Assembly: GCA_022538095.1 (NCBI GenBank)
Contig: JAKYXN010000051.1
Coordinates: 1 to 38,043 of the forward strand
DNA length: 38,043 nt
Reading direction: 5' to 3'
From: Puniceicoccaceae bacterium K14
Lineage (GTDB): Bacteria; Verrucomicrobiota; Verrucomicrobiia; Opitutales; Opitutaceae
In this document: positions 4,261-25,235 of the stretch, piece after piece
Numbering within the stretch: position 1 is the first letter of the stretch
Layout of the letters: the number at the start of each line of letters is the position of its first letter
Program-made: the position numbers and the translations under genes
Notes under the pieces: generated by a model
What the model saw: the letters and a program-made list of their open reading frames with translations, nothing else
What the model was told of the DNA's origin: nothing
Databases searched by the model: none

Positions 4261-4275
4261 ACTCAAAATCGAACC

Positions 4276-5517: not shown

Positions 5518-6839
5518 ACTGCTCCTAAAGTTTCAAATTCACGGTTAATATTGTTTCGATCACGGTTGGATAACAACAGGGTGATCCACAAAAGAATGAA
5601 AAAGGGAAACGCATCCATTCGCAGGAAAAAGCTCTGCCCCATAGCATAAAACGACATGTAGCTAAACGCAACTGCGAGCATAGAAGAAGCCGCTTTTCTT
5701 TGCCAAGTACCGTACTTCCCTGCGACTCTCCCCCATCTTAAGATTAAAGTCAGTGGGAAGACGAAAAGGAAAACAATCAGTCCAACAACACCCAAGTCAA
5801 CGAGGATATCAACATACGCATGATGCGACTGGCGCGGATTCCATGTTTGCACCAGTTCACGCCCCTTCCCTTCGGTCCAGAATGCTCCGAATCCGTGACC
5901 GATAAGCGGTTCTTTCTTTACCTCGTACATCACAGTTATCCAAAGTTCGTCACGACCGGACAAGGACTCGTCTCGGCCCACAGCATCGAAGAAAGAACTT
6001 TTCAGCGTGCTCACACCCAACAAAGAAACGATCAAAAAGACAAAGAAAGCCATGATTTGCAAACTTCCCCTTTCATAAGCATTACTCGACAAAAATATGT
6101 AGACGGAAATTCCAATCAAAGTCGTAACGATAGCTGTGATGGAAACAGTCAACATAAGAGCCAATACCAGGAATATTTGAATACTGCGAAGTAACAAAGT
6201 CTCGTCCTTATTAGTATGCTGAAAGCCAAAAGAAAGCATCAGTCCAATCGAGAGAAATGGAGCCAAAGTGTTTGGGTGGATCGCTACTCCAGCAAGACCT
6301 GGACGACCTGGATTGACCGTGCACGCACTTGGCAATATGAAGTAAAACACAACCGACAAAAACGCCACCGCTCCACAAAAGAACACCACTGTACGAATCA
6401 TAAAACGAACGGGATTCGTTGAACTATGCAAAATACAGGCGAGAGCTAGAAAACCGAAAATATATATCGAAGAACGTTTGAGCGTTAAGCCCATTCGCTC
6501 GGACCACACTGCTGAAAATACAATCAACCCTCCAACCAAGAACACAGGCCAGTGAATCATACACACAGCTCCGAGTGAACGAGTAACCAATAAGCGCCAC
6601 ACTGCCAAGAAACCACACCCAGCAAAAATCACCTGGCGAATTGCTCCACCCGCATTTTTGTCAGAAAGCAAAATCTCCTGGGTCGGTAAGCGGAAACTAT
6701 TCACCATATAAAGCATCCACAATACAATACCTACTGTTAGAAAAACGCTGACACCTGTATTCCGCAAACGCTCTAAATCAACGGTTAGATCAGGAGCTGG
6801 AGTTCTCAGCTCGCTTTTAATCGTATGTGAAGACTCCAT
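5514..6839 (-). CDS. O-antigen ligase/polymerase family protein (Wzy_C)
   Basis: A 441-residue inner-membrane protein with around 10-12 spans. A periplasmic loop carries the family signature: GRDELWITVMYEVKKEPLIG, then HGFGAFW and NPRQSHHAYVDILVDLGVVG. In an operon with a flippase, chain-length protein and exporter, its most likely job is Wzy-type polymerisation of the EPS repeat unit; ligation to a lipid acceptor is the alternative. A GTG at 6842 could start it, but the next codon is an ATG (6837-6839) whose A overlaps the stop of the Wzz-like gene as TGATG, a usual coupling junction, so I start it there. Confidence 0.8.
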   Translation of the reverse strand: MESSHTIKSELRTPAPDLTVDLERLRNTGVSVFLTVGIVLWMLYMVNSFRLPTQEILLSDKNAGGAIRQVIFAGCGFLAVWRLLVTRSLGAVCMIHWPVFLVGGLIVFSAVWSERMGLTLKRSSIYIFGFLALACILHSSTNPVRFMIRTVVFFCGAVAFLSVVFYFILPSACTVNPGRPGLAGVAIHPNTLAPFLSIGLMLSFGFQHTNKDETLLLRSIQIFLVLALMLTVSITAIVTTLIGISVYIFLSSNAYERGSLQIMAFFVFLIVSLLGVSTLKSSFFDAVGRDESLSGRDELWITVMYEVKKEPLIGHGFGAFWTEGKGRELVQTWNPRQSHHAYVDILVDLGVVGLIVFLFVFPLTLILRWGRVAGKYGTWQRKAASSMLAVAFSYMSFYAMGQSFFLRMDAFPFFILLWITLLLSNRDRNNINREFETLGAV

Positions 6840-8137
6840 CACGATGCCTCTTCCCGGGTTGCCTTAACTTTCATGAGTTTCTTCAGTTCAGAAAATTTGG
6901 CTGATATGTATTCGCTTTTTAGTGCTTTTTCGACTTGTAGACGACACAAAGCATACGCTACCGCTAAGAAAATTGATAGTCCCAAGAAAATGCCTATCTC
7001 ACGCTTTTTGCTCGGTCCAGCAGGCCGCTCGGGAGCCAAAGCAGATCGCACGACAACCAAATTTCCAATGGGTTGCTCTGCCCGAATTCGATAAATATCA
7101 GCCTTTGTTCCAAGGGCTGAAACGAGGTCGCGTTCGAAACGTACCTTTTGCTTCAGATTTTCATGTTGCACCAACAATTGTCCGTAATCACCTTCACCGA
7201 TCGTACCTACAATCCGGCTACGAGCATCCGCTTCCATTTTTTCTAATGAAGCGATTCGCGAGCGCAATTTTTGTACTTCGTATGACTTTTCTGAATAGCT
7301 GAGTAACGCTTCGTTCAATTCAGAGGTAGCTTCGTCTCTTTTGGCTACCAACTCCCGGATACTGCGCAATTGATTGCTCGCTTGCATATTAGGATCGATC
7401 ACTCCTTTTTCCGAGGCAAAGCGCATGAGCTCAGCTTCCGTCCAAACAAGTCGGCGGCCGGCATTTTCAAACGCTTCATGCATATGATTGGCCTGCTTTA
7501 GTAATAGTTCGCGTTCAATCGCTTTACTAGCTCGGCGACACTCCTCAAAAAGTTCGTTTGCTATCTTAGCGGAAAGTGTCCCACTTTGACTTGTGACGGA
7601 CACAGTAATGAGCCCCTCTTCTGTTGAGGTTAATTCGATCATCGACTTGAGCTGATTCACCACCTCGTCTGATCGATCGTTCTCTGACAAATGGCTTCTC
7701 AGTTCGTCTCCATACTTATCCGCAATTTGCGAAATGATCGAGCGAGACTTAATCAATGTTGTATAGAGAGTTGGGTTCGCCGGAAGCATCAAACTACCCG
7801 TAGTACTTTTACCGGCACGATCATCTCCCGTTTCTACAGAACTCGTATCAACTGTGATATCAAGCGCAGGTTTTTCCCGAGGCAATAGCACCGCAACCGC
7901 AGAAGCAGTGTATTGCTTAGGAAGAGTCGCGAAGCGCGCCACTCCCAACGCCACACCAATAAGAATTATAGATAGGACAAGCCACTTGCTCGCAGCAATC
8001 GCGCAAACAGCGTCCATTAGAGGCACCATCCAGCCTACAGCCTCGGTGGCATTCCTTGCCCTTTCCGACATTGCTTTCGCTTTTATCGACTCGCTACTGT
8101 GGAAATTTTCCGGGCCAGTATTACTGTCTTCTTTCAT
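6839..8137 (-). CDS. Wzz/GumC-like polysaccharide chain-length protein without kinase domain
   Basis: A 432-residue protein of the polysaccharide co-polymerase type. A first membrane segment lies near residues 52-72 (WLVLSIILIGVALGVARFA), a large periplasmic part is rich in coiled coil (about 180-320, with LRSRIASLEKME), and a second span lies near 380-400 after the proline-rich stretch SALAPERPAGPSKKREIG. The N-terminal periplasmic pattern YTASAVAVLLPREKP is typical of Wzz domains. It sets chain length and couples the polymerase to the exporter. The protein ends ~30 residues after the second span, so the fused tyrosine autokinase seen in many Wzc proteins is missing; no stand-alone kinase or Wzb phosphatase gene is in the window. 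It lies 12 bp downstream of the exporter gene. Confidence 0.8.
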   Translation of the reverse strand: MKEDSNTGPENFHSSESIKAKAMSERARNATEAVGWMVPLMDAVCAIAASKWLVLSIILIGVALGVARFATLPKQYTASAVAVLLPREKPALDITVDTSSVETGDDRAGKSTTGSLMLPANPTLYTTLIKSRSIISQIADKYGDELRSHLSENDRSDEVVNQLKSMIELTSTEEGLITVSVTSQSGTLSAKIANELFEECRRASKAIERELLLKQANHMHEAFENAGRRLVWTEAELMRFASEKGVIDPNMQASNQLRSIRELVAKRDEATSELNEALLSYSEKSYEVQKLRSRIASLEKMEADARSRIVGTIGEGDYGQLLVQHENLKQKVRFERDLVSALGTKADIYRIRAEQPIGNLVVVRSALAPERPAGPSKKREIGIFLGLSIFLAVAYALCRLQVEKALKSEYISAKFSELKKLMKVKATREEAS

Positions 8138-8149: not shown

Positions 8150-10870
8150 TTAAAACTTACCATCGAGGAGGAGCTCACCGTTGATACCCGAGCCTCTTCC
8201 TGTCGTTGGGCTGACAAGTGTCATATCGACGTCTTTGCCAATTTGAGAACCGATCACCGCTGTCTCTGCTGCATGACGCAGAAGAGAAATTGCGTCGGAC
8301 AATTCAGCGCCGAGGGTGCGCTCTACGGGAGCTCGTGGAACCATCAAGACATCGCCTGCAAGCAACTTACTCCGCTTACCTTTGGACTTTAGGTTTTCAA
8401 CACTGCCGTCGGCCCGGACGATGTAGAGCAAGCGGTTGTCAGCGAATTCGGTCAATCCTCCAGCACTCTCCAATGCATCAGGCACATCCATCTCGCCATT
8501 GATTACTAAACTGATTGGACGAAAAACGTGCCCTACGACACTGATTGTACAATGAGCCTTCGGTATAGATAGAGAATCTCCGTTTTCTAGAACCAGGTTG
8601 TAGCCCGTTTCAGGAAATTCAGGATGATCAAACGGAATCACAATACGTCCGTCTGCCTCCACATTTTTCATACGACGCAAAGTGTCTTTCGTCTGCTCTA
8701 AAGCGATTTTGGCTGCTAAGCCTTCTCTCATTTGCCCTGTTTGCACGAGACGCTCAAACGATTGCTCATAAAGACGACGCGTACGCTCTGTTAAATGGTT
8801 CATCCGCTTCTGCTGAAGATTTTTGGTCGACTCACGAGTAAATATAGCTGCTCTTAAGTCTGCATCCGACAAGATGCCGCCAGCAGCAGCCACCAAATCC
8901 GAAATATTCGCGCCAGCAGGGAAAATGTATTCACCTGGAAACGGCACGCGCCCTCCTATTTTTACTCTTACTTGGGCTTGCTGAAGCTCTCGAATCACCA
9001 AGCGATCACCGCTTGCTAATAACGGATTATTTGTATCTGAATAGGCATTCTCAGAATCGAGTGCACTGCGTAAGTCAAAACGATAGCGACGTACATCAAG
9101 GCGTTTTGTCCGTTCATCGAATACGCGACGAATCAATTCCGCTTGGTCGTAGTAAACCTCTTGTTTAAGATTGTTCGCCACAGCGATCAAATCCGAGACT
9201 CGCATGCCTGCCGTGAGTTCGTAGACGCCCGGTCTTTGAACAGAACCGATGATTTCTACCTCTGCTCTCTCCTGAGCCTCAAGGATAGAACGCACTGTAA
9301 CATAATCCAATGGGTGTAGCTCTATGTCGTGGGTCGCGTCACCGGAAATAGCCTTGCCTAAGTCAACAACCAAAACCCTTCTAGTATTGCTTTGGCTGCG
9401 TCTTCCGGGAACAAGTTCTATTTCCGAGGAGTCTCCCAACTGTCGCGAAATGATAGCCTGCGGTAAATAGGCATTCACCGTTAATCCATCGGCTCGTTTC
9501 ACGAGATCACTTATCTTCATCCCTACTTGGAATTGGAATTCGCCCGGGCGAGCTACTTCTCCTTCGATATGCACCAAAGGCTGGCGGGCATCATCCACTG
9601 CTTCAATCATGAGCAGCTCGCCGTTACCCATCTCCAAAGTCATTGTTTCTTCTGTAAGTTCAACATCGATACGCTCTCGACCGCGACCGTTAACCGTACG
9701 CTCCAAACTCGCTAAAGGCATAAAAGAAAATGGAGTCAATCCACCGGCATACTCAATCGCGTCAGCAACCGTCGTCTTGTCTCCCAATAGCTCGTAGATT
9801 CCTGGTTTTTGCACATAACCCGCTATACCTACAGTCGCTCCGATCGTCGGTACGATGATAGTATCCCCTTCGCGTAGCGAAAGATTGGATAATTGGGACT
9901 CTGGTCCATTTAGGAAATCATAGAGATCAATCTGGATCAAACGCTGTTCGCCTCCCTCGTTTCGACGTACCGACACAGAGCGCAGTGAACCATCTTTCCT
10001 CGGGCCACCAGCTGCTACAAGAGCGGTTAGCGGTGTCGCCAAAGCAGGTACTTCTACCTGTCCTGGTTGGTTGACTTGACCCACTACGTTAACTTGGATC
10101 ACACGTAATTTACCAAGAGATACGCTCAATTCAAACCCTCGGCGAGTTTCTTGCATAAATGACACCAAGGCATCGTACAAGTCTTCATAAGTTTGATTCG
10201 CCAGGGGGATCTGTCCAAACTCTGGTACGCTCAAGATCCCATCACGGTCAATCACGAGACGGTGAAACGCTTCCACGCCTCCAGTTAAAGAGATCAAGAC
10301 TTCGTCCCCAGGTCCCAAGACATAGCTACTTGGGATTGGTCCAATGGTTGAACTCGTATCAACTCCATTTTCGAAGAACGCATAGCCAAACTGCTCAAGA
10401 TCACGACTGGCTTTACGTTCGATATTGCCTCGATAAAGATCTTCTAGTCGAGAACTCTCTTCTTGGCCTACCGTATCCGCATCCTCTTCTTTTTCTTCAT
10501 TCGAGTTAATATTTACTATAACTGATCGTCCGTATCCGGATCCCCCCTTTCCTTCTTTTGTTTCCTCCCTAGCAGAATCGTTTTTCTTCGTAGCAAGCTT
10601 TTTCCCTACTGGATTCGTCAAGTTCTTAGGACTTCCCCATGGCAATGCGTCACTCACATATGATTTACTCGTTGGAGTGACCAACGGCGCTTTGTTGCCG
10701 ACGTTCTCCACCGGGACTGTACCCACTTCTTCATGAGCGGACTGAACCCATGAGTACGGTCCCTTACCCGTGCTGACGATCCTGCTCTGGCATCCCACTA
10801 ACAAAAAGGACGCTGCGAGAGCAAAGGCACACTTCATCCAAGCGATGTCTGTTTTCGAACTCGTTTTCAT
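8150..10870 (-). CDS. Wza-like outer-membrane polysaccharide exporter with multiple SLBB domains
   Basis: A 906-residue lipoprotein; the family member Wza of E. coli has about 380 residues. The signal ends in a lipobox (FLLVGC, Cys27). After a linker rich in charged residues, the Poly_export domain starts near 180 (YVLGPGDEVLISLTGGVE). A string of SLBB-type units follows, each with a V.G.V..PG.......M...DL...AGG pattern: near 255, 345, 435, 535, 635 and 775. The first carries VVGQVNQPGQVEVPALATPLTALVAAGG-like spacing. The C-terminus has an amphipathic segment (LSDAISLLRHAAETAVIGSQ) that could form the outer-membrane helix barrel. The extra SLBB domains predict a long periplasmic tunnel. It overlaps the upstream GT gene by one base (TAATG). 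Confidence 0.85.
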   Translation of the reverse strand: MKTSSKTDIAWMKCAFALAASFLLVGCQSRIVSTGKGPYSWVQSAHEEVGTVPVENVGNKAPLVTPTSKSYVSDALPWGSPKNLTNPVGKKLATKKNDSAREETKEGKGGSGYGRSVIVNINSNEEKEEDADTVGQEESSRLEDLYRGNIERKASRDLEQFGYAFFENGVDTSSTIGPIPSSYVLGPGDEVLISLTGGVEAFHRLVIDRDGILSVPEFGQIPLANQTYEDLYDALVSFMQETRRGFELSVSLGKLRVIQVNVVGQVNQPGQVEVPALATPLTALVAAGGPRKDGSLRSVSVRRNEGGEQRLIQIDLYDFLNGPESQLSNLSLREGDTIIVPTIGATVGIAGYVQKPGIYELLGDKTTVADAIEYAGGLTPFSFMPLASLERTVNGRGRERIDVELTEETMTLEMGNGELLMIEAVDDARQPLVHIEGEVARPGEFQFQVGMKISDLVKRADGLTVNAYLPQAIISRQLGDSSEIELVPGRRSQSNTRRVLVVDLGKAISGDATHDIELHPLDYVTVRSILEAQERAEVEIIGSVQRPGVYELTAGMRVSDLIAVANNLKQEVYYDQAELIRRVFDERTKRLDVRRYRFDLRSALDSENAYSDTNNPLLASGDRLVIRELQQAQVRVKIGGRVPFPGEYIFPAGANISDLVAAAGGILSDADLRAAIFTRESTKNLQQKRMNHLTERTRRLYEQSFERLVQTGQMREGLAAKIALEQTKDTLRRMKNVEADGRIVIPFDHPEFPETGYNLVLENGDSLSIPKAHCTISVVGHVFRPISLVINGEMDVPDALESAGGLTEFADNRLLYIVRADGSVENLKSKGKRSKLLAGDVLMVPRAPVERTLGAELSDAISLLRHAAETAVIGSQIGKDVDMTLVSPTTGRGSGINGELLLDGKF

Positions 10871-13032
10871 TACGCAACATTTGTTGATTTTTCTACAACG
10901 TGTTCAAAGTCTCCGCCCCAAGCCATTTCTGCTGCATGCCGGAAGCTGTTAGCCAAATTTACAGTATTGAATCCTCTTATACTTTCTTGTGCTGCTTTGC
11001 CCAAGGCTTCTAAGTCGTCACGCACCAGAACTCTTTCTAAATAGTCAGAAGAGTTCTTTGAATCCGTAAAATCTATACCAAATCCATCGACCCCTTCGTG
11101 GATCAAGTCATCATAGCAACCCGCGTAAACAGAGCAAAGGCTAGGTGTTCCACACACACTGGCTTCGTTTACAACAAGCCCCCACACGTCTCCACAACTC
11201 GGGAAAATGTGTAAGTCAGCTGCTGTGTACCAAGCTGACATTTCCTTGGAATCCACATAACCAACATGGGCAATACTCTCGTCACTCGTTTCTTCTATCA
11301 TCGCAGCCAAGGGTCCGCTTCCAACAAAAACAAGTCCCCACTCATCGCGTGTTTTTTGACTCATGTTTTTCCAGGAGTGCAACACTTGCTCGATCCCTTT
11401 CAAGGGGATTAGTCGTCCTACAACAATTGCCAATTTTTTATTTTTCGCATAAAAATTTTTGATACGATCTACTTCGTACGAAAAACGAGGGTTTTCTTGG
11501 CATTGCCTCAAGCTGCGATTGTCCGCCGCATTAAGAGCATCAACAATTCTTGCCTTTGGCACACCCCATCCGCTCAAAACTTCGTGAGCTTGCTTGCCCA
11601 TTCCAAGGGCATAGCGAGCACGCCTTAACAACCACTTACGCAAAAGGAGGCGTGCCCCCCCTTGGCTAGCGCTAACACGTGATTGGTACGCCCATACAAC
11701 TAAAGGAACTCTGCGAATTATACAATAGATAGCAGCAAACAGGGTACGAAACCCAAGTTCGTGGCTTATTACTAAATCTGGTTTCTGGGCGAAAAGGTCA
11801 CGCACTAAGCCATAAGGGATGTGCAACGTAATCGTTTGATCAAACCGCACCGGTTTGAAATTACGTACAATTCGCTTCAGACTGAAAGTATTTGCTTTCT
11901 TCCACTCAAAACCATTGCGATCAACTTTCCACTCTCTATCAAATTCGTTTTCGGCATCCACAAACACTTTGAAATTCCAACCTGGAGTAGCCGCCAATTC
12001 TTTGAAGACTGGTGCACGGTAAGGACTTATTATATTGGTTAAAAAAGCCACATTCTTCGTTTTAACATTAGACTCTAGTTCGCTTTTGTTTTTATACTCA
12101 ACGTATCCAAAAGTTGTTTCTTTTCTTATCCATGTTTTTACACCGCCAAACATCAAAGGTATGCGTAACAGTGCTTTCAATGCCTTTTCCGGTTTACCAA
12201 CGATTGCCGCTGGCATTGCTACCGCCAATTTAATTACGGTCGCTACAATTCTCTTAGCCGCACGTAATACGGGAAAACGATTCTCTCCCACCATTTTTGA
12301 GACACGGTCAAATACTAGGCCATTGCGATACCAGCGATTCCACAACCATTTAAAGTTGGCACGTTCTACTGGCACTTCTTCAAATACTACCGCCTCTTGA
12401 CACGCGACAAATTTCGCTCCGATATTCTTCATCGTAGCAAATAACATCGTATCGGAACCTCCGCTACGCCCAAATCGAGGATCAAATCTCACAGCATTTT
12501 TTCCATGGAACCAATTTCCTCGAACAATCGTGTTGCTGGTTCTCGTTTCCTTCCAATCAAGTTCAGTTCCTGTTGCTGGTGTCTCTTTATTAAAAAAATT
12601 TCCTCTAAGCACCCATTCTTCTGCCTCATCGGGACAAATTCCATAGACCGGTCCGAAAACTGCATCCACCTTGTACTCTCTATATGCACCCCATAACAAT
12701 AACAACCAAGCCGTATGAACGACTTCGTCATCGTCTACGAATACATAGGCCTCTGCCGGTCCTATCGCAATCGCTGTATTTCGAGCGAGAGCGATATTCT
12801 GCTCATCCTGAATGCGATATTCAATATCATCAAACGGATGATCAGTGCGGCAATACTCATCCACAATCACATTGCTGCTCCCATCAGAATCGTTGTCGAC
12901 TATCCGCAACTCCAAATAGATGCCCACTGGAACCGCCATTTCGGCTAAGCTATTCAAAAGGTTACGCAACATCTTTGGGCGGTTGTAAGTGGCCACGCAG
13001 ATAGCGACTTTCTTCTTCAAATTTTCATTCAT
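10870..13032 (-). CDS. Bifunctional glycosyltransferase: GT2 domain fused to GT4 domain
   Basis: A 720-residue protein with two transferase domains. Residues ~8-300 are a GT-A/GT2 domain: VAICVATYNRPKMLRNLLNS at the nucleotide-binding strand, DNDSDGSS, and the metal-binding DXD as VFVDDDEVV. Residues ~335-700 are a GT-B/GT4 domain beginning VAFLTNIISPYRAPVFKELA, with VVGRLIPLKGIEQVLHSW and the late acidic motif FPSCGDVWGLVVNEASVCG. It could add two sugars in sequence. It is the first gene of the EPS operon. A strong GAGGAG ribosome site lies 7-12 nt upstream of the ATG, and a sigma-54-like promoter lies ~70 bp upstream. The fusion of inverting GT2 and GT4 modules is unusual but the frame is continuous and all motifs are present. 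Confidence 0.85.
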   Translation of the reverse strand: MNENLKKKVAICVATYNRPKMLRNLLNSLAEMAVPVGIYLELRIVDNDSDGSSNVIVDEYCRTDHPFDDIEYRIQDEQNIALARNTAIAIGPAEAYVFVDDDEVVHTAWLLLLWGAYREYKVDAVFGPVYGICPDEAEEWVLRGNFFNKETPATGTELDWKETRTSNTIVRGNWFHGKNAVRFDPRFGRSGGSDTMLFATMKNIGAKFVACQEAVVFEEVPVERANFKWLWNRWYRNGLVFDRVSKMVGENRFPVLRAAKRIVATVIKLAVAMPAAIVGKPEKALKALLRIPLMFGGVKTWIRKETTFGYVEYKNKSELESNVKTKNVAFLTNIISPYRAPVFKELAATPGWNFKVFVDAENEFDREWKVDRNGFEWKKANTFSLKRIVRNFKPVRFDQTITLHIPYGLVRDLFAQKPDLVISHELGFRTLFAAIYCIIRRVPLVVWAYQSRVSASQGGARLLLRKWLLRRARYALGMGKQAHEVLSGWGVPKARIVDALNAADNRSLRQCQENPRFSYEVDRIKNFYAKNKKLAIVVGRLIPLKGIEQVLHSWKNMSQKTRDEWGLVFVGSGPLAAMIEETSDESIAHVGYVDSKEMSAWYTAADLHIFPSCGDVWGLVVNEASVCGTPSLCSVYAGCYDDLIHEGVDGFGIDFTDSKNSSDYLERVLVRDDLEALGKAAQESIRGFNTVNLANSFRHAAEMAWGGDFEHVVEKSTNVA

Positions 13033-13099: not shown

Positions 13100-13117
13100 T
13101 GTCAATTACCGTGCCAA
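13100..13117 (-). promoter_or_regulatory. Sigma-54-like promoter of the EPS operon
   Basis: On the minus strand the sequence is TTGGCACGGTAATTGACA. The -24 element TTGGCACG matches the sigma-54 consensus exactly. The -12 element is TTGA instead of TTGC, with the expected 10 bp between GG (13114-13115) and GA (13102-13103). It would place the transcription start near 13088, about 55 nt before the ATG. Two palindromes upstream at fixed spacing support it as an enhancer-dependent promoter. Confidence 0.75.
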
Positions 13118-13140
13118 TTCGCTCAAAAATTCCATTACCT

Positions 13141-13196
13141 TATGCTTATTAACAACTTACGAATTCATTAAGCATATCCACAGATTTAATGAATTC
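13141..13196. repeat. Overlapping inverted repeats between core promoter and enhancer palindromes
   Basis: Two nested inverted repeats: TATGCTTA (13141-13148) with TAAGCATA (13169-13176), and GAATTCATTA (13161-13170) with TAATGAATTC (13187-13196). Both are perfect and mutually exclusive as hairpins. The position between core promoter and upstream activator sites is where a DNA-bending protein or a second regulator would act. The repeats are seen directly; the role is inferred. Confidence 0.5.
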
Positions 13197-13203
13197 TCAT
13201 TTA

Positions 13204-13218
13204 CAGTAAAATTTACAG
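13204..13218. promoter_or_regulatory. Upstream activator palindrome, EPS operon, proximal site
   Basis: CAGTAAAATTTACAG has a 6-3-6 layout with one mismatch between arms. It lies 89 bp from the -24 GG of the EPS promoter. The equivalent site of the second EPS operon (15626-15640) lies at 90 bp. An activator of the NtrC type is expected to bind here. Confidence 0.65.
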
Positions 13219-13253
13219 AGTGCATTCGCACTTTTCTGTAAAAGGTTCGATGA

Positions 13254-13268
13254 CTGTAAAATTTACAG
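13254..13268. promoter_or_regulatory. Upstream activator palindrome, EPS operon, distal site
   Basis: CTGTAAAATTTACAG is a perfect palindrome (6-3-6) that starts 50 bp after the proximal site. A half-site CTGTAAAA lies between the two at 13236-13243. The pair is reproduced in spacing and order upstream of the second EPS operon. Confidence 0.7.
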
Positions 13269-13330
13269 TTTTCAGATATATCATAACCTCGAAATCACCT
13301 TCCATCTAATAGCGAACGGACACGCATAAA

Positions 13331-13357
13331 CGCCCTATGATCAAAGACCATAGGGCG
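13331..13357 (-). terminator. Strong hairpin downstream of the WecG-type gene
   Basis: CGCCCTATG (13331-13339) pairs perfectly with CATAGGGCG (13349-13357), a 9-bp GC-rich stem with a 9-nt loop. It lies about 60 bp past the stop codon of the 13419 gene. There is no long U tract, so termination may be weak or Rho-assisted. It separates this operon from the EPS enhancer region. Confidence 0.55.
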
Positions 13358-13369
13358 CCCAACAACAGC

Positions 13370-13397
13370 CCCTTGTCGTTAGCGTGGATAACAAGGG
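13370..13397 (-). terminator. Second hairpin downstream of the WecG-type gene
   Basis: CCCTTGT (13370-13376) pairs with ACAAGGG (13391-13397), with a 14-nt loop. It lies 21 bp after the stop codon and in tandem with the 13331 hairpin. The two probably act together to end transcription or protect the 3' end. Confidence 0.4.
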
Positions 13398-13418
13398 AAA
13401 TTCGCAATTTCGAAAGAA

Positions 13419-14261
13419 TCAGTTCGATCCGGCAAAAAACATTCTTGAGTGGACATACTTTTTTCTCACCAAAACCTTCGCCATCAATTGCTTAGCAGCT
13501 AAAACGATAAAAACAGGATTCGTTGAAATGTAGCGTTTAAACAAACGTTTTGGCTCGCGATAAAGTCGGTAAGCCCATTCCAACCCCATTGACTGGATAC
13601 GAGCCGGCGCTTGCTTAACCGCCCCCGCGTGGAAATCAAATGCAGCTCCCACGCCAATCATCACCCCTCGAATTTTCGGAGAATGATCTTTCATCCATAT
13701 TTCCTGTTTTGGACAACCAATTCCTACTAAAATAACGTCCGGACGGGCATCTTGCAATTGCTTAGTGAAATCATCATCCTCTTGCTTCGTTAGAGGGCGA
13801 AACGGTGGCGATATAACTTTGACTACTTTCAAATCCTTAAAATCTGCTTTCAATCCAGAAACCAATTTATAAATACGGTTCGTGTGGCCGCCATACAATG
13901 CCACTCGAAGCCCTTTCTGGTTACAGCGATTCATCAATTCCAGCATTAGATTGGGCCCATACACACGAGATGCACTACGGTAACCTACGGCTCGCTGCAT
14001 CCACACTAATGGCACTCCATCCGCTATATTCATATCTGAACTCTCCAAGGCGTCCTTTAGTTCGGGCATCCATCTGGAGGACGTTAATGAGTGTACGTTG
14101 CACACACACACATAGCGTTTTTCTCGGCGATCCGCCCAACGTTCGATCTGGTCGACCGTTTGCGCATAATTCATATTCGCTATTGGGTAACCAACGACTT
14201 CGCTTTCCTCAAAGCGATCCACCTGGACTCCTGGATAATTGTTTTCTTCCAAATTCTTCAT
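13419..14261 (-). CDS. WecG/TagA/CpsF-family glycosyltransferase (GT26)
   Basis: A 280-residue protein with the GT26 signatures: YVCVCNVHSLTSSR, ADGVPLVW, RVYGPNLM, ALYGGHTN, PDVILVGIGCPKQEIWM and GVMIGVGAAFDFHAG, followed by the C-terminal basic region GLEWAYRLYREPKRLFKRY that contacts the membrane. These enzymes add the second sugar (for example N-acetylmannosaminuronate or a related residue) to undecaprenyl-diphosphate-linked sugar. The gene follows the initiating sugar transferase by 16 bp with AAGGA upstream of the ATG, so the two gene products should act in consecutive steps. The exact sugar cannot be read from sequence. Confidence 0.88.
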   Translation of the reverse strand: MKNLEENNYPGVQVDRFEESEVVGYPIANMNYAQTVDQIERWADRREKRYVCVCNVHSLTSSRWMPELKDALESSDMNIADGVPLVWMQRAVGYRSASRVYGPNLMLELMNRCNQKGLRVALYGGHTNRIYKLVSGLKADFKDLKVVKVISPPFRPLTKQEDDDFTKQLQDARPDVILVGIGCPKQEIWMKDHSPKIRGVMIGVGAAFDFHAGAVKQAPARIQSMGLEWAYRLYREPKRLFKRYISTNPVFIVLAAKQLMAKVLVRKKYVHSRMFFAGSN

Positions 14262-14277
14262 AATTTAATCCTTCTAT

Positions 14278-14934
14278 TTATCTCAACGTACCATTTTTTT
14301 TAAATACATACATCATCGTCATAAATATCATTAAAATGTCGTACTCTACGCATTTGTTCTTCAAATAGTGCAATTCGCCACTAAAACGCTTACGCCAGTC
14401 ATCCACCATCTCTTTGCCCACTGCGTTGTCTTCGATACATATCTGTCCGATACTAGTGAGGCCCGGGCGCACTTGATATCTCATAGCAAACCCGCTGATG
14501 GATTTTCTAAGCTCCCGATCCAAAGTCAGAGGCAATGGCCGGGGCCCTACAAACACCATTTCGCCCATCATTATGTTTAAGAGTTGGGGGATCTCATCCA
14601 ATTTGAGAGCCCTTAGAACTCGTCCAACGCGCGTGATACGAGGGTTCCTATTTGTCACGCCCAACGCAGTCGTCTCCTCACTTCCAACGGACATTGTGCG
14701 AATTTTATAGATAATAAATTCCTGCCCTTTGAGACCCGCTCGTTTCTGGCGAAACAGAAACGGTCCCGGCGATGTCACTTTAACTGAAACAAACAACGCT
14801 ACCACCAAGGGCGATAAAACAATCAGCATCAAAAGAGCTACAGACCTCTGGATCCACTCCCAGAAGACTTCCCTTCTTTTGGACACAGACGCGTCAAAGG
14901 CTGAAAAACCATGTACTAAATTTAAGTAGTCCAT
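14278..14934 (-). CDS. Undecaprenyl-phosphate sugar phosphotransferase (bacterial sugar transferase family)
   Basis: A protein of about 219 residues. One N-terminal membrane helix (about residues 28-52) is followed by the catalytic domain of monotopic phosphoglycosyltransferases: SPGPFLFRQKRAGLKG, FIIYKIRTM, RITRVGRVLRALKLDEIPQLLN and GEMVFVGPRPLP. It transfers a sugar-1-phosphate to undecaprenyl phosphate and starts repeat-unit assembly. It is the short form without the CoA-binding/four-helix N-terminal part of WbaP. A GTG at 14976, inside the receiver gene, opens the frame, but the ATG at 14932-14934 lies at the natural beginning of the domain and follows the receiver stop by 16 bp. Confidence 0.88.
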   Translation of the reverse strand: MDYLNLVHGFSAFDASVSKRREVFWEWIQRSVALLMLIVLSPLVVALFVSVKVTSPGPFLFRQKRAGLKGQEFIIYKIRTMSVGSEETTALGVTNRNPRITRVGRVLRALKLDEIPQLLNIMMGEMVFVGPRPLPLTLDRELRKSISGFAMRYQVRPGLTSIGQICIEDNAVGKEMVDDWRKRFSGELHYLKNKCVEYDILMIFMTMMYVFKKNGTLR

Positions 14935-14950
14935 AATCAAGCGTAGACAC

Positions 14951-15454
14951 CTACTTGGCTGTCTCCTCCTTAGCACTACTCAAACATTGATTCCACGAGC
15001 CCAAAAGATCTTTCATCGAATCCATGATCGACTTGAAGTTAGTCCGCGTCCGGCTCGGTGATTTGCTTCGCTTAACCTCTTCTATATAACGCTTAATGAC
15101 CTTGTGAGCCTCTTCCGAGGCCTCCTGCGAACACTTGTCGTACACCGCACAACAACCGCGATTCACCATATCTCTCAGAGTCTTGAGGTCCAATGTAGAT
15201 GACAAAGCGACAATCAGAGCTTGTGGCGCAATCTCCCGAATCTCCCGCATCAACGCATGGGCCATCTTTTCCCCATCGAAGTCATTGTCGATAAAATAGA
15301 TATCATACCCCGCTTCAACAACGGGGTCATTCGCAACAGTTACTTCAACACCTGGATAAGACACTTGCATCCTATGTCCTAACACTTTGGTGACAACGGG
15401 GTCATCATCTATAATAAGGATACGGAGACGATAATCTCCAAACAATTCATCCAT
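14951..15454 (-). CDS. Stand-alone receiver-domain response regulator in the EPS initiation operon
   Basis: A protein of about 167 residues. The receiver domain (~10-125) has the acidic triad LRILIIDDDPVV, phosphoacceptor Asp56 in YFIDNDFDG, Ser in ALSST (about 85-86) and Lys107 in VYDK, so it should be phosphorylatable. No output domain follows: only a ~40-residue basic/polar tail (EEVKRSKSPSRTRTNF...). It is the first gene of an operon with the initiating sugar transferase and the GT26 enzyme, suggesting it adjusts their activity or acts as a phosphate partner of the nearby kinase. The frame can open at GTG 15526 or ATG 15487; the ATG at 15454 is preferred for its GAAGAAGAG ribosome site and because the longer starts overlap the core promoter. 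Confidence 0.75.
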   Translation of the reverse strand: MDELFGDYRLRILIIDDDPVVTKVLGHRMQVSYPGVEVTVANDPVVEAGYDIYFIDNDFDGEKMAHALMREIREIAPQALIVALSSTLDLKTLRDMVNRGCCAVYDKCSQEASEEAHKVIKRYIEEVKRSKSPSRTRTNFKSIMDSMKDLLGSWNQCLSSAKEETAK

Positions 15455-15520
15455 CTTCTCTTCTTCAGTTCCAATACTACTATTCATGACATATTTAGGG
15501 GTTCTGGTTTCCCATTCATT

Positions 15521-15538
15521 TGTCACAAATCATGCCAA
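15521..15538 (-). promoter_or_regulatory. Sigma-54-like promoter of the second EPS operon
   Basis: On the minus strand the sequence is TTGGCATGATTTGTGACA. The GG (15535-15536) and GA (15523-15524) are separated by 10 bp, as in the promoter at 13100-13117, with which it shares TTGGCA and the terminal TGACA. The -12 half is weak against the general consensus. A start near 15509 gives a ~55-nt leader to the ATG at 15454. The two palindromes upstream are at the same spacing as in the EPS operon. Confidence 0.65.
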
Positions 15539-15548
15539 CTGGACTAAA

Positions 15549-15565
15549 AATTACTTTATGTAATT
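15549..15565. repeat. Palindrome between core promoter and activator sites
   Basis: AATTAC (15549-15554) and GTAATT (15560-15565) form a perfect inverted repeat with a 5-nt centre. It sits between the sigma-54-like core and the two activator palindromes, in the position occupied by the larger inverted repeats of the EPS operon. Confidence 0.4.
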
Positions 15566-15625
15566 CACTATAAACAGTTTACAAGCCACCAGACAAAACC
15601 CAACAGATCGAAACTCTTCAAGAAG

Positions 15626-15640
15626 CAGTAAAAATTACTG
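15626..15640. promoter_or_regulatory. Upstream activator palindrome, second EPS operon, proximal site
   Basis: CAGTAAAAATTACTG is a perfect 6-3-6 palindrome, 90 bp from the -24 GG at 15535-15536. It also lies ~95 bp upstream of the H-NOX start, in the divergent intergenic region. Confidence 0.65.
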
Positions 15641-15655
15641 TATCCGTTCCTCAAA

Positions 15656-15684
15656 TTGACGATACCACTTGCAGACTGTAAGTT
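15656..15684 (+). promoter_or_regulatory. Possible sigma-70-type promoter of the H-NOX operon
   Basis: TTGACG (15656-15661), 17 bp, then TAAGTT (15679-15684). The -35 is good and the -10 is poor. The -10 lies inside the palindrome at 15676-15690, so binding of the activator there would block this promoter. Confidence 0.4.
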
Positions 15685-15690
15685 TTACAG
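15676..15690. promoter_or_regulatory. Upstream activator palindrome, second EPS operon, distal site
   Basis: CTGTAAGTTTTACAG is a perfect 6-3-6 palindrome, starting exactly 50 bp after the proximal site, as at the EPS operon. It overlaps the putative -10 of the plus-strand H-NOX operon and ends 29 bp before its ATG. Confidence 0.7.
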
Positions 15691-15719: not shown

Positions 15720-16265
15720 ATGAAAGGTATAGTATTCACCGAGTTTCTTGAAATGGTCGAAAAAGAGTTCGGCTTTGAAGTAGTCGATAAGATTACATCT
15801 ATAACCAATCTACACGGCCAAGGGGCTTACACAGCTGTCGGGAACTATCCTCACTCAGACATCCTTGCTATGGTCGGCAAACTAAGCGAGTCAGTTGGAC
15901 TATCGCCCAGCGACCTCACTCTTACATTTGGGCGCTATCTGTTCAAAACGTTCTCAAGGGAGTATAAGGATTTCTTTCAAAATGTGAATTCCTCCAAGGA
16001 CTTTCTTTTTGGCATTGAAACTGTAATACATAGCGAAGTCCGAAAACTATATCCCGACGCATTACTGCCTTCTTTTGAATGCGAAGTGTTATCGGACGGT
16101 AGTCTTGTTATGGACTATCACTCCATTCGTCCCTTTGCTGACCTCGCCGAAGGACTCATCTTAGAGTGCATAGAGCATTTCAAAGATGGTCGCTCCCTTG
16201 AGCGAATTGAAGGCAAGACTGAAGACGCGCACAGCGCTCGTTTCATAATAAAACCCTCTCAATAG
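15720..16265 (+). CDS. hnoX: H-NOX heme protein, nitric oxide sensor
   Basis: A 181-residue single-domain heme-nitric oxide/oxygen-binding protein. The proximal heme ligand is His104 (ETVIHSEVRKLYPDALLP), the conserved Pro of the family is Pro117, and the heme-propionate motif YxSxR is Y133-H-S135-I-R137. The position equivalent to the distal Tyr that stabilises O2 in anaerobe H-NOX proteins is occupied by Leu142, so it should discriminate against O2 and respond to NO. It is the standard length of a stand-alone bacterial H-NOX. The frame opens at a TTG at 15669, but the domain starts at the ATG at 15720 (MKGIVFTEFLEMV). It is followed 10 bp later by the hybrid kinase gene. Stand-alone H-NOX proteins typically inhibit or modulate such a kinase depending on NO binding. 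Confidence 0.92.
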   Translation: MKGIVFTEFLEMVEKEFGFEVVDKITSITNLHGQGAYTAVGNYPHSDILAMVGKLSESVGLSPSDLTLTFGRYLFKTFSREYKDFFQNVNSSKDFLFGIETVIHSEVRKLYPDALLPSFECEVLSDGSLVMDYHSIRPFADLAEGLILECIEHFKDGRSLERIEGKTEDAHSARFIIKPSQ

Positions 16266-16275: not shown

Positions 16276-18768
16276 ATGGGTTCAAACGAGCTAGAAGCAA
16301 TAAAGCGAATTCTACAGCGCGAACGCGTTGCTCGAAAAGAAGCTGAAAAGCTACTCGAGGAAAAATCTAGAGAGCTCTATGACACCAACGAAAAACTCAA
16401 AGGGTTTGCCACTGAACTCGAGGGCAGAGTCAACAAAAGAACACAAGAGCTTGCCACCCAGAACAATCTACTTACTTCAATCTTTGGGTCGATCAAAGCT
16501 GGAATTCTTTCTGAAGACATAGGAAATGACAATGTATTGGTAAATCAGTACATGTGCGACCTGTTTTCCTTAAAGCTGTCTGCAAAGGAAGCCAATCAAC
16601 TAAATGTTGAGGAATTTTCCCAACTAATAAATGGGAAAATATTAAATCAGTCTGCATTCGCACTAAGCACTCTGCAAATCCTATCCAATCGCGTACCGAC
16701 CTCCGAAGAAGAATGGCTTTTGAAGGACGGAAGGTATGTTAGCAGACTCTTTATTCCTCTAAAAATTGGATCCAAATACCAGGGCCCGTTTTGGATGTAT
16801 ACAGATGTCTCTTACAGCAAAGAACTAGAAAGCTCACGCGCAGCCGCTCAAGCGGGAACCGAAGCCAAGTCCATATTTTTGGCGAATATGAGTCACGAGA
16901 TTCGAACACCTCTAAACGGCATAATTGGCATGAATCGTTTGTTAATCGAAGATGGCCTTAAGCCGAGGCAAATGGACTTCGCCATGTCTGTTAACGAGAG
17001 CGCTCAATCTCTGTTACAAATAATCAATGACATCCTCGATTTTTCCAAAATAGAAGCTGACCGTCTTGACCTAGAAATTGTACCGTTCTCAATTATCGAC
17101 ATGGTCGATTCGGTTTTTGAATTGCTTCAGGTAAAATCAAACAACAAAGGGCTTAATTTCAATGTCATTTACGACCCACAAATTCCACCAGTCTTAAGCG
17201 GCGACCCAAGTCGACTCAAACAAGTTCTCTTGAACCTTCTAGACAATGCTATAAAATTCACACACGAGGGATCGGTAACACTAAGGGTTCAGGCTTACAG
17301 TGCGACCGACGACACTTGCATCGTAAAATTCCTCGTCGAAGACACCGGAATTGGCATGGGCAAACAAGACCTGTTTGATCTCTTCAAACCCTTTTCCCAA
17401 GCAGATGCTACTATATCCAGAAGATTTGGCGGCACAGGACTGGGACTCGCCATATCCAGAAGGATACTACACATGATGGATGGTGATATTGAGGTTTCTT
17501 CCGAAAAAAGCAAAGGCACCATATTCACTGCGACTGCTAAATTTCCAATCGATGAATCTTCAGACAAAAAACCGACAGTCCTCTCAGACACACCCAGTTT
17601 TGCAATCATCATAACAGCAGCTAACTCTGAGCAAAAGCAATCTCTATCAAGCATGGTTGGGTTAGAAGGGTGTTCCCCAATATCGACCTCCAACGTTTCT
17701 GAAGCTCTCGAAATCTTAGACAAAAGCAATAATGATAGAACACTTTGGGTCGTTTCCTGCGATAAGATGGATCCCAAAGACCAGGCCAATCTTAGAGGGA
17801 TCATTCAAACTATTAGCCCTAAATGCACACCCATTTTCTTGTTACGCAACGATAAACAAGCTGAGCAGCTCTACCTTACGCAATACTCCACAATTCACAT
17901 GCCCATCAATCGCAAGAATCTTTTGCGACGTATTGGTAATGCAATGGATGTTGGCACCCTGCCCCATATCCAACTTGAAGGAAACGACGATGAGACAATA
18001 AGCTCTCTTAACCTCAAGCAAATACGAGTTCTGCTAGCGGAAGACAATAGCATCAACCAGCAAATGGGACGTATTACCCTAGAGAGAATGGGAGCCAAGA
18101 TAGATGTGGCTGCCAACGGTCTGGAAGCCATCCAAATGCACAACAAAATTTCCTACGATGTGATTATAATGGACATACACATGCCGGAAATGGACGGCGT
18201 AGAAGCCTGTAAACGAATTCGAGGCGCCGGCTCCGACATCCCAATTATCGCCTTAACGGCAAATGCAATGAAAGGAGACAAAGAACGCTTCCTTGACGCA
18301 GGAATGGACGAGTACCTTAGCAAGCCGCTAATACATACTGACCTCATAAAAATTTTCCAAAAGCTCTTTTCTGAAGGTTCCGAGGAATCTTTTAAAGAAA
18401 AGCGACCTACAGAGGACCTGTCTGCCAAAAGCATAATAGATTACGAGGCATTCCTAGCCACAATTGGTGGTGATGTAGAAATCGCAAAAGATGTAATGAA
18501 CACCTTTTGCCTGCAAAAAGAGGAAATACTCCAGACTCTGGAAGACGCCCAGGAAAGTCAGGATTGGAAGAAAGCTCGAGCCAATGTTCACCGTCTTTGT
18601 GGTAGTAGCTATTCCATACACGCACACGAGATTGCCCAAGCAGCCAGCGAGATGGAAGCACTCTTGGACGAATCTCCTAACCACAGCACAGCACTTGAAG
18701 AATCGATTGAACAGCTCAAAATCGCTCTCTGTCGGTTCGACAAATGCTTACAAAACATTTCATTCTGA
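16276..18768 (+). CDS. Hybrid histidine kinase with receiver and Hpt domains, H-NOX-associated
   Basis: An 830-residue soluble kinase with no membrane segment. Order: coiled coil (~5-65, ERVARKEAEKLLEEKSREL, the start typical of H-NOX-linked kinases); PAS-like region (~66-180); HisKA with His207 in MSHEIRTPLNG; HATPase with N324 (LLNLLDNAIKFT), DTGIGM and GGTGLGLAIS; a degenerate receiver (~440-560) lacking the Asp pocket; an intact receiver (~583-700) with LLAEDNS, Asp633 in IMDIHMPEMDG and Lys in LSKP; and an Hpt domain (~720-830) with His772 in VHRLCGSS. It thus carries an internal His-Asp-His relay able to pass phosphate to a separate receiver. It is 10 bp from the H-NOX gene and its stop is adjacent to the ATG of the activator gene (TGAATG), which points to these as input and output. 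Confidence 0.9.
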   Translation: MGSNELEAIKRILQRERVARKEAEKLLEEKSRELYDTNEKLKGFATELEGRVNKRTQELATQNNLLTSIFGSIKAGILSEDIGNDNVLVNQYMCDLFSLKLSAKEANQLNVEEFSQLINGKILNQSAFALSTLQILSNRVPTSEEEWLLKDGRYVSRLFIPLKIGSKYQGPFWMYTDVSYSKELESSRAAAQAGTEAKSIFLANMSHEIRTPLNGIIGMNRLLIEDGLKPRQMDFAMSVNESAQSLLQIINDILDFSKIEADRLDLEIVPFSIIDMVDSVFELLQVKSNNKGLNFNVIYDPQIPPVLSGDPSRLKQVLLNLLDNAIKFTHEGSVTLRVQAYSATDDTCIVKFLVEDTGIGMGKQDLFDLFKPFSQADATISRRFGGTGLGLAISRRILHMMDGDIEVSSEKSKGTIFTATAKFPIDESSDKKPTVLSDTPSFAIIITAANSEQKQSLSSMVGLEGCSPISTSNVSEALEILDKSNNDRTLWVVSCDKMDPKDQANLRGIIQTISPKCTPIFLLRNDKQAEQLYLTQYSTIHMPINRKNLLRRIGNAMDVGTLPHIQLEGNDDETISSLNLKQIRVLLAEDNSINQQMGRITLERMGAKIDVAANGLEAIQMHNKISYDVIIMDIHMPEMDGVEACKRIRGAGSDIPIIALTANAMKGDKERFLDAGMDEYLSKPLIHTDLIKIFQKLFSEGSEESFKEKRPTEDLSAKSIIDYEAFLATIGGDVEIAKDVMNTFCLQKEEILQTLEDAQESQDWKKARANVHRLCGSSYSIHAHEIAQAASEMEALLDESPNHSTALEESIEQLKIALCRFDKCLQNISF

Positions 18769-20166
18769 ATGCGAAAGAAACGAATATCAAATCTTCTAAT
18801 TGCGGATGATGATGCCGTCATCAGAAAACTAGTACACTATAATTTTGAAAAAGCAGGATTGTACTGTGACGTCTTCGAGGATGGTCATGACTTACTGAAA
18901 GTCGCGAGCGAGGAGACGCATGTTTGCGTTTTAGACATAGAGATGCCACGGCTAGGTGGTCTAGAATGTTTGAAGAAACTCAAGAAGACCTACCCGCACA
19001 TCGAAGTAGTCATTCTAACAAACGTAAACCAAGCGGCGGAAGCTCTCGAAGCGATTCGCTCTGGAGCGTTTGATTACCTCACTAAACCGTTTGACCCCAA
19101 CACCCTTATACGGGCCGTTCGCAAAGCAATTCAGCTAAGCAAAAAGCAAAGAGAAAATGACGACCTGAGAAGCACATTGGTCGACAGCCCCGTAGTTTCA
19201 AATGCCCTTGGAGAGTCCGACGCCATGGCACGTATCAAAAACCTTCTTTCACGTATTGCTCCATCGGACAACGTCGCCCTCTTCACCGGACCAAGCGGCA
19301 CCGGCAAGACTCTTCTGGCTCGCGAACTCCATTCAAAGAGTAAGCGAGCAAATGGCCCTTTTATCAGCGTGAGCTGCCCATCCCTTCCGGGAGAATTGCT
19401 CGAATCCGAAATGTTTGGCCACGAGAAAGGATCCTTCAGCGGAGCCACCCAAAGGCGACTAGGACGAGCTGAATTGGCTCATAGCGGAACGCTTTTCTTA
19501 GATGAGATCGGTGAAATGTCGCTTCCTTTGCAAGCTAAATTACTTACGTTTTTGCAAGAAAAAACATTCTATCGTCTTGGCGGTGAAAAACAAATACAGA
19601 GCGACATTCGAATAGTAGCCGCAACCAACCAAGACCTCGAAAAATCAGTCCGGGAAGGCAAATTCCGAGAAGATCTTTACTTCCGACTAAACGTATTGCC
19701 TATCCACGTTCCCACTCTAAGCGAGCGAAAGGCCGACATACGACTTTTGCTAGACCATTTCTTAAGCCGAATAGCCACAAGTGAAGGCCAGTCTACACCA
19801 ATCGTCTTAGAAGAAACTTACGTGGCATTAGAAAACTATTCCTGGCCAGGCAATATCAGAGAATTAGAAAATGCAGTCATTCAAGCATATACACTTCGTT
19901 TGGATACAGACACGCTACAGTCTAGCGACTTCACTATGCTCCGCAAAGAGTCAGCAAATCCAGAGAGCAGTCAGACCTCAACGACAGTTACCAAAGCGAA
20001 CTATTTATCCGGATTGCCCCTGGCTGAAATAGAGAAACTGGCGATCACCCAAACCCTCGAAATGTGTCATAACAACAAGAGCGAAACTGCTCGGATTCTC
20101 GGCATCGCCGAAAAGAGCATCTACAACAAGATGAAGAAACACGGAATAGTAATCCCCAAAGCATAA
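18769..20166 (+). CDS. NtrC-type sigma-54-dependent response regulator
   Basis: A 465-residue activator. The receiver (~5-120) has Asp56 in VLDIEMP, Thr84 and Lys106 (LTKPF). The AAA+ domain (~148-385) has Walker A GPSGTGK (174-180), the sigma-54-contact loop as GSFSGA (221-226) in place of GAFTGA, Walker B LFLDEIGEM (242-250) and the arginine-finger region REDLYFRLNVLPI. A Fis-type HTH_8 ends the protein (~420-465, AITQTLEMCHNNKSETARIL then GIAEKSIYNKMKKHGI). It begins directly at the stop codon of the hybrid kinase, so it is its probable partner. It is the best candidate to bind the four C(T/A)GTAA-N3-TTAC(A/T)G palindromes and activate both EPS promoters. Confidence 0.9.
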   Translation: MRKKRISNLLIADDDAVIRKLVHYNFEKAGLYCDVFEDGHDLLKVASEETHVCVLDIEMPRLGGLECLKKLKKTYPHIEVVILTNVNQAAEALEAIRSGAFDYLTKPFDPNTLIRAVRKAIQLSKKQRENDDLRSTLVDSPVVSNALGESDAMARIKNLLSRIAPSDNVALFTGPSGTGKTLLARELHSKSKRANGPFISVSCPSLPGELLESEMFGHEKGSFSGATQRRLGRAELAHSGTLFLDEIGEMSLPLQAKLLTFLQEKTFYRLGGEKQIQSDIRIVAATNQDLEKSVREGKFREDLYFRLNVLPIHVPTLSERKADIRLLLDHFLSRIATSEGQSTPIVLEETYVALENYSWPGNIRELENAVIQAYTLRLDTDTLQSSDFTMLRKESANPESSQTSTTVTKANYLSGLPLAEIEKLAITQTLEMCHNNKSETARILGIAEKSIYNKMKKHGIVIPKA

Positions 20167-22296: not shown

Positions 22297-22302
22297 ACCC
22301 AC

Positions 22303-23331: not shown

Positions 23332-23362
23332 AAATTTCTCCTTCCAATTTAAATTTCTAGTT

Positions 23363-24385: not shown

Positions 24386-24480
24386 TTCGATTAAAACTCA
24401 ACGCTCCAAGATATTGTACTTCGCTTTTCATCTTATAAAAACGAATACAATGCACAACAAAGCTAAAGAACCCCAATAAG

Positions 24481-24846: not shown

Positions 24847-25036
24847 AACAATTAGACTCCTTTCGTAGTTATTTCCGAAAAGCCAGACCCCCGATAAAAC
24901 GCCAACAGACTTGATCAAAACTGTCTCAAAAACATTTAGTTAATAGATCACCGAGAAGAGTTCAGGCTAAGAAAACAAGAGTAAGGCGTTAAGACTGGGG
25001 ATGCTCTAGGCGAACTAAGACTCGATGCCCTAGATT

Positions 25037-25051
25037 ATATCGTAACGATAT
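25037..25051. promoter_or_regulatory. Palindrome in the divergent intergenic region
   Basis: ATATCGTAACGATAT is a perfect 7-1-7 palindrome. It lies midway between the receiver gene start at 24846 and the receiver-HD gene start at 25236, so it could be an operator for either operon. Confidence 0.4.
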
Positions 25052-25160
25052 GACTAATACAATTGGTAGTTTCAGCGTATTTTTGAATCAAGAGACCATA
25101 TTCTCCTAAGCGCTTTACTCTAATTACCTTATAAGTACGTCAGGCATTTATTTTTTAGTT

Positions 25161-25188: not shown

Positions 25189-25235
25189 TGCTCGATCAGT
25201 ATCGAACATAGAACGACGTAAACGAAAATAAAAAA

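Follow-up and report, generated by a model that had tools for sequence, protein, structure and literature searches.

In a 38,043-nucleotide stretch of the genome of Puniceicoccaceae bacterium K14 (assembly GCA_022538095.1, contig JAKYXN010000051.1, positions 1 to 38,043; hereafter, the window, that is, the whole stretch analyzed), a cluster of exopolysaccharide (EPS) genes is split into two operons, each preceded by the same arrangement of a promoter core and two upstream palindromes. This layout is real and conserved, and it is mainly as described in an earlier note made from the letters of this DNA. We consider it likely that these are enhancer-dependent sigma-54 promoters bound by the activator encoded at 18769-20166, which would be fed by a kinase under the control of an H-NOX heme sensor; the narrower prediction, that sigma-54 promoters of the EPS operons are served by this NtrC-type regulator, is well supported by comparison with relatives. 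Each putative promoter combines a GG-N10-GA core with tandem dyads of the form C(T/A)GTAA-N3-TTAC(A/T)G, the near edge of which lies 89-90 bp upstream of the GG:

13100..13117, minus strand: sigma-54-type core of the downstream EPS operon, GG-N10-GA; TTGGCACGGTAATTGACA, read 13117->13100
13204..13218, no strand: predicted proximal enhancer site of the downstream EPS operon, near edge 89 bp from the GG
13236..13250, minus strand: weak middle half-site, ends TTTTACAG, 3 mismatches, edge 121 bp from the GG
13254..13268, no strand: predicted distal enhancer site of the downstream EPS operon, edge 139 bp from the GG
15521..15538, minus strand: sigma-54-type core of the upstream EPS operon, GG-N10-GA; TTGGCATGATTTGTGACA, read 15538->15521
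15626..15640, no strand: predicted proximal enhancer site of the upstream EPS operon, near edge 90 bp from the GG
15676..15690, no strand: predicted distal enhancer site of the upstream EPS operon, edge 140 bp from the GG

The cores, both on the minus strand, and the four 15-mers are found where the earlier note had placed them, the 15-mers start 50 bp apart in both pairs, and the proximal site has its near edge, as claimed there, 89 and 90 bp away from the first G of the GG. The description of the 15-mers as four palindromes (starts 13204, 13254, 15626 and 15676) has to be amended for the first one, CAGTAAAATTTACAG, which is imperfect, with a mismatch at position 2. The GG of the -24 element is embedded in a TTGGCAY context, as in sigma-54 promoters, and one rpoN gene was found in the genome (Sigma54_DBD match, 202 bits). 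Transcription is predicted to start near 13090 for the downstream operon and near 15511 for the upstream one; domain matches place exopolysaccharide genes directly downstream of both promoters, in agreement with their original designation.

So could the agreement between the two promoters be a product of chance or a leftover of a recent duplication? By count, the single 15-mer is not rare, as a chance explanation would have it: CWGTAANNNTTACWG is present in 6 copies in the 5,719,191 bp genome, compared with 5 for the reversed control, although four of the six are the sites of the two promoters, with the remaining two inside long open frames. The pair behaves differently. Two 15-mers at this spacing, with up to 3 mismatches, occur twice in the whole genome, both times at these promoters, and the reversed control is not found at all, which bears out the original contention that such agreement is unlikely by chance; the strict pair (50-bp spacing) is absent from 371 other genomes of the order, a search that misses the related locus of genome G105 because the spacing there is 52 bp. 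Random scatter of the paired motif is rejected on these counts. With sites and cores masked, the two promoter regions align with a score of 18.0 against a shuffle mean of 18.9, and 210 of 300 shuffles do as well; therefore the matching geometry (50/50; 89/90 bp) was not left by recent copying, and duplication of one promoter is likewise rejected. Considering also that the same layout recurs in other families, we give chance or duplication next to no credence. The earlier note went on to propose the 15-mer pair as a regulon motif and to suggest a genome scan for further EPS or nitric oxide (NO)-related targets. The pair does mark both EPS operons and sits exactly at the two promoters, without the promoter-independent scatter of the motif that the note thought fatal to its idea, but the scan yielded neither a third target nor any further EPS or NO-related one, and in relatives the motif is looser.

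Divergently from the EPS operons, the window encodes the presumed sensor, kinase and activator:

15720..16265, plus strand: H-NOX heme sensor protein (predicted), HNOB 132.4 bits, cut-off 25.5
16276..18768, plus strand: hybrid histidine kinase, HisKA-HATPase-REC-Hpt by domain matches
18769..20166, plus strand: NtrC-type activator with a receiver (REC) domain, a sigma-54 AAA+ domain (loop GSFSGA) and a Fis-type helix-turn-helix (HTH)

The predicted sensor matches solved H-NOX structures (best, 126.7 bits), with records named NO-binding sensor among the matches, and the proximal His and the YxSxR motif are both present in 7 of 8 aligned H-NOX proteins, including that of the window, and absent in the protein of locus L024. 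The latter locus deserves a comment of its own: at L024 9949-10470, a Crocinitomicaceae H-NOX homologue adjoins a sigma-54 activator and carries an Arg at the position of the proximal heme His of the other aligned proteins. The activator of the window has the domains by which a response-regulator-type bacterial enhancer-binding protein is recognized, namely REC, sigma-54 AAA+ and Fis-type HTH, with the loop GSFSGA in place of the exact GAFTGA; the list of enhancer-binding proteins in PMC4641369 includes GAFSGA and GSFTGA, and GSFSGA does not figure in the list given there. Co-variation of this loop with the -12 letters of the promoters is unsupported, given that GAFTGA accompanies a GA promoter in G596, G962, G633 and G063; the loop is GSFSGA in the window and GAFSGA in G105.

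Under the scheme that we favor, the H-NOX-controlled hybrid kinase would feed a phosphorelay from His to REC to Hpt to the REC domain of the activator, which would then bind the dyads and open sigma-54 RNA polymerase at both cores; if H-NOX kinases that have been characterised are a guide, NO bound to H-NOX would switch off the kinase and hence the EPS operons. That H-NOX and the kinase act on this particular activator is suggested by the co-recurrence of the three in four families, considered below, and by the analogy with Vibrio fischeri. By description, the window is similar to the HnoX-HahK-SypF/LuxU-SypG-syp circuit of that bacterium in the combination of H-NOX, kinase, DNA-binding regulator and EPS genes, but it differs in joining the sensor, a kinase with its own Hpt, the activator and the EPS genes in one locus; in V. 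fischeri, it is SypF or LuxU that carries the Hpt, and SypG has a site unlike that of the window. According to the published accounts, the hnoX-kinase (hahK) operon acts via a phosphorelay on SypG and through it on EPS genes, with NO inhibiting biofilm via HnoX (PMC12369376), and SypG is a sigma-54 activator (PMC10162802). HnoC of Shewanella, as described in PMC8738867, is another phosphorylated transcription factor of an H-NOX pathway, which represses the hno genes until phosphate relieves the repression; the factor of the window, the phosphorylation of which is presumed, differs in having a sigma-54 AAA+ domain and, presumably, EPS genes as targets. The likeness to NorR consists in NO control of sigma-54 transcription and several enhancer sites; however, NorR is described as being regulated by its own GAF domain, whereas sensing in the window would be delegated to a separate H-NOX and a phosphorelay, and the activator scores 300.3 bits with the NorR model, the cut-off being 476. 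Within the open-licence literature, the mention of H-NOX together with Verrucomicrobi- in the available text of PMC9500659 concerns an enzyme of a methanotroph.

Among 94 other genomes, the best match to the activator (50% full-length, E 1.7e-148; the next one, 2e-94) comes from G063, in another family of the order, where the gene stands at the end of an exopolysaccharide/exosortase cluster, three operons of which are preceded by palindromes resembling those of the window and by a GG-N10-G core. When 387 genomes of the phylum were searched with a profile, five activators besides that of the window matched at E <= 1e-130, four in family f29 plus one in G075. The operon order in the f29 genomes G633, G599 and G596 is activator - H-NOX - kinase, and in G715, of the same family, H-NOX and kinase are encoded ~14 kb from the activator; sites and cores in f29 genomes lie ahead of GT2 or PEP-CTERM genes. 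Activator relatives accompanied by similar palindromes are found in three families besides those of the window and G105, and in f29 and f142 they are encoded with H-NOX and a hybrid kinase. From the side of the sensor, a single-query H-NOX search of 56 relatives was unproductive; with an H-NOX profile, matches (E <= 0.001) were obtained in 33 out of 384 genomes of the class, and the neighbourhoods in 23 of the 33, the window among them, were read, with the position taken from the profile search in the four (G866, G938, G783, G812) where gene calling had left H-NOX unlabelled. An activator was counted as H-NOX-linked if it scored >150 bits with P0002, the activator of the window, or was its blastp match, within the stretch read. 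Ten of the 23 neighbourhoods (G000, G105, G596, G599, G633, G715, G866, G938, G939, G962) contain such an activator. The combination of H-NOX, kinase and activator recurs in these ten genomes, which belong to four families, in varied gene orders. The Hpt domain is part of the kinase in the window and in G105, is found in small separate proteins in G599 and G633, and is weak in G715.

The most telling case is G105, of another family of the order, which keeps the succession of receiver-like protein, Bac_transf, WecG, glycosyltransferase (GT), SLBB, Wzz and Wzy, with H-NOX, kinase and activator divergent; ten proteins of this locus are 36-57% identical to those of the window. Two sites spaced by 52 bp are retained in the intergenic region of G105, at a distance of 87 bp from a core of the form GG-N10-GT. 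When 38 activators were placed in a tree, a branch with support 100 separated the 10 H-NOX-linked ones from 24 paralogs of the order, and the ten form, together with those of G063 and G075, a set of 12, again with support 100. This is a quick tree, for which 24 of 28 paralog loci were taken; its support values are of the SH-aLRT (Shimodaira-Hasegawa-like approximate likelihood ratio test) kind only, and some of its branches are long, among them those of G939 and G075. The recognition helix has the form EK(S/T)(I/V)YNK (EKSIYNK in the window) in all 10 members of the 12-member set that were read, and in none of the 12 paralogs read of the 24.

The promoter geometry is conserved along with the activator. 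A pattern with 31-bp spacing and a looser motif, derived from G063, G715, G599, G596 and G962 before the search, gave, with up to 3 mismatches, 9 pairs in 6 of 13 genomes, compared with 2 for the reversed control; the other seven are the window and G105, both with wider spacing, and G866, G938, G939, G932 and G909. Seven of the nine pairs are on the contig of the activator, within ~25 kb of it (three in G962 and one each in G063, G715, G599 and G596), and of the two off-contig pairs, G715:C44 has 1 mismatch and a core to itself, whereas G633:C21 has 3 mismatches and lacks a core; newly found by this search were these two and the G962 pair at C129:2210. Once the two pairs of the window are added, a core lies at 88-93 bp in 10 of 11 tandem pairs (8 of 9 without the window), with 0.31 expected from dinucleotide shuffles over a stretch of 60-140 bp. 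A hand-collected table of 16 promoters from 9 genomes and 4 families combines ten found with the pair patterns and six from reading the upstream regions of genes (proximal distances: G105, 87; G063 b, 86; G063 c, 78; G715 b, 103; G633, 92; G938, 89). The proximal edge is 86-93 bp from the GG in 14 of the 16, the exceptions being 78 and 103. The distal edge is 139-140 bp from the GG in the window's two promoters and G105, and 118-124 bp in 11 of the 13 others (exceptions, 111 and 133), and the pair spacing is 50, 50 and 52 bp versus 30-34 bp in the other 13. The 50-bp spacing thus belongs to this lineage; the half-site edge at 121 bp in the 13.1-kb promoter coincides with the usual position of the distal site in most relatives. 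The -12 dinucleotide is GA in 9 of the 16, GT in 4, GC in 2 and GG in 1. A TTGGCACG-N4-TTGNW scan gave 9 matches in 6 genomes (GA 5, GC 3, GG 1) compared with 6 for the reversed control, all five GA matches being in G715 and one of them already in the table. Among individual promoters, three of the GT2 type share one contig in G962 (L114, L124, L128), and in G599 the GT2 genes behind such a promoter are followed by genes for HlyD and an 1116-aa PMT_2 protein, with similar promoters in G596 and G633.

Several observations weigh against the proposed H-NOX-sigma-54 connection. Both window promoters have GA at -12, not the GC of the sigma-54 consensus, and are therefore named sigma-54-type here. 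No H-NOX was detected in the 54 kb read around the activator of G063, and in G075 the activator gene is surrounded by genes of flagellar type, the 40 kb read there yielding neither an H-NOX match nor a site (<=1 mismatch). Thirteen of the 23 H-NOX neighbourhoods were read without finding an activator of this kind. G866 possesses activator, H-NOX and kinase, yet it has no pair, nor any site (<=1 mismatch) in 20 kb; a pair is also missing from G939, which has a single site; and the sites of G633 and the proximal site of G938 are poor (2-3 mismatches). Finally, the core pattern, which leaves the -12 letter free, and the 31-bp spacing were both written after several promoters had been viewed.

One of the two closest known systems, the other being the V. 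fischeri circuit, suggests an alternative, namely, that the locus belongs to the PrsK/PrsR regulation of exosortase-type EPS as a divergent branch of it, with H-NOX an incidental neighbour in some genomes. Haft et al. report, ahead of PEP-CTERM genes, a box of 17 nt that has TTTACA at its end and is in some cases repeated, and propose PrsR as its binder; the spacer between box and sigma-54 motif (core GG/GC) averages 62.8 nt (32-92), and among the species studied there it is seen in Proteobacteria only (PMC1569441). Shared with the present system are an NtrC-like activator near EPS genes and a repeated box, compared here from the text, that likewise ends this way and precedes a sigma-54 motif (PMC1569441, PMC9850573); moreover, PrsR is one of the three top-scoring models for P0002, genes for an exosortase and for an EpsI-like DUF3485 protein belong to the G063 cluster, and in G715 a PEP-CTERM protein is one of the targets. 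The 25 of 149 families listed for the window kinase do not include PrsK. Nevertheless, P0002, P0004 and P0005 score 375.6, 394.7 and 368.2 bits with TIGR02915 (PrsR), under its cut-off of 502.6, and these activators are therefore not classed as PrsR; and the boxes differ in that the near edge is 86-93 bp from the GG in 14 of 16 promoters and -12 is mostly GA. Given, in addition, the joint recurrence of H-NOX, kinase and activator in different gene orders, we hold this alternative to be unlikely.

The place of the distal site invites yet another explanation, that the palindromes are operators at which a different regulator acts, such as one repressing the divergent H-NOX operon, and that the cores are served by another of the genome's sigma-54 activators. 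The H-NOX start codon is 29 bases beyond the end of the distal site 15676..15690 in the window, the distal site of G105 ends 11 bases before the H-NOX start, and the genome encodes at least five further activators that match P0002 at E <= 1e-60. However, the second pair (13204/13254) adjoins no regulator gene, and the sites of relatives precede genes for GT2, WecG, flippase and PEP-CTERM proteins at the near-constant distance from the core; such an explanation appears to us very improbable. Within the favored scheme, as a guess, the proximity suggests a second use of the distal site in controlling the sensor operon. On a broader reading, surface polysaccharide and PEP-CTERM genes of bacteria of the Planctomycetes-Verrucomicrobia-Chlamydiae (PVC) group might form, across the whole class, a sigma-54 regulon under NO control, with its own activator clade, dyads 86-93 bp from the GG, GA or GT at -12, and, in the window and G105, a distal dyad lying ~18 bp further out, next to the sensor start codon, whereby the activator may also control its own sensor operon. 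This broader hypothesis is tentative, and we doubt it more than we believe it.

The EPS operons themselves, listed in the order of transcription, have the following composition:

14951..15487, minus strand: small receiver-like protein, first gene of the upstream operon, Response_reg 19.7 bits, below the cut-off of 30.2
14278..14976, minus strand: initiating sugar transferase, Bac_transf
13419..14261, minus strand: WecG/TagA/CpsF-type glycosyltransferase, domain match
13327..13361, minus strand: terminator-like 16-bp hairpin with a short U tail, 3' of the WecG gene, z -3.73 over a 111-nt stretch
10870..13032, minus strand: GT2-GT4 fusion glycosyltransferase, first gene of the downstream operon, domain match
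8150..10870, minus strand: SLBB / Poly_export polysaccharide export protein, domain match
6839..8137, minus strand: Wzz-like chain-length protein, weak match, below cut-off
5514..6842, minus strand: Wzy_C / O-antigen ligase-type polymerase, domain match
4276..5517, minus strand: GT4 glycosyltransferase, domain match
3001..4266, minus strand: hydrophobic protein in the flippase position, a presumed role suggested by position; no family match

The strong hairpin 3' of the WecG gene fits two separate transcripts; a simple terminator scan missed it, and a simple scan for sigma-70 promoters and terminators showed no excess over shuffles. The WecG-GT gap of G105 is only 34 bases, so that seemingly there is one promoter there versus two in the window. 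The receiver-like protein, which is 43% identical to its counterpart in G105, could be a phosphate sink or a feedback element; the alternative, longer GTG start of its gene, at 15526, is ahead of the predicted transcript start.

Elsewhere in the window, positions 20248-27542 hold a second signalling cluster, with a PAS histidine kinase, two secreted-looking proteins without a family match, receiver-only proteins and a receiver-HD_5 protein. Positions 2050-2448 encode a PIN-domain (PIN_3) protein, possibly the toxin of a toxin-antitoxin pair, and positions 35145-37778 a PVC-type heme-binding protein (161.9 bits, cut-off 122.2), which makes membership of the host in the PVC group probable, with a verrucomicrobial class presumed.

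Four points are new beyond the earlier note: a clade of activators linked to H-NOX, a distance that stays nearly constant from family to family, a -12 element that is mostly not GC, and a pair spacing specific to the lineage. To our knowledge, little is in print on gene regulation in this bacterial group, and the locus suggests, in a form that can be tested, how NO sensing could be wired to matrix production. The idea of an enhancer box, seen by Haft et al. only in Proteobacteria, is now extended. In addition, natural promoters in which one distance is held and another changed, with an unusual -12 element, provide material for asking what sigma-54 enhancers require.

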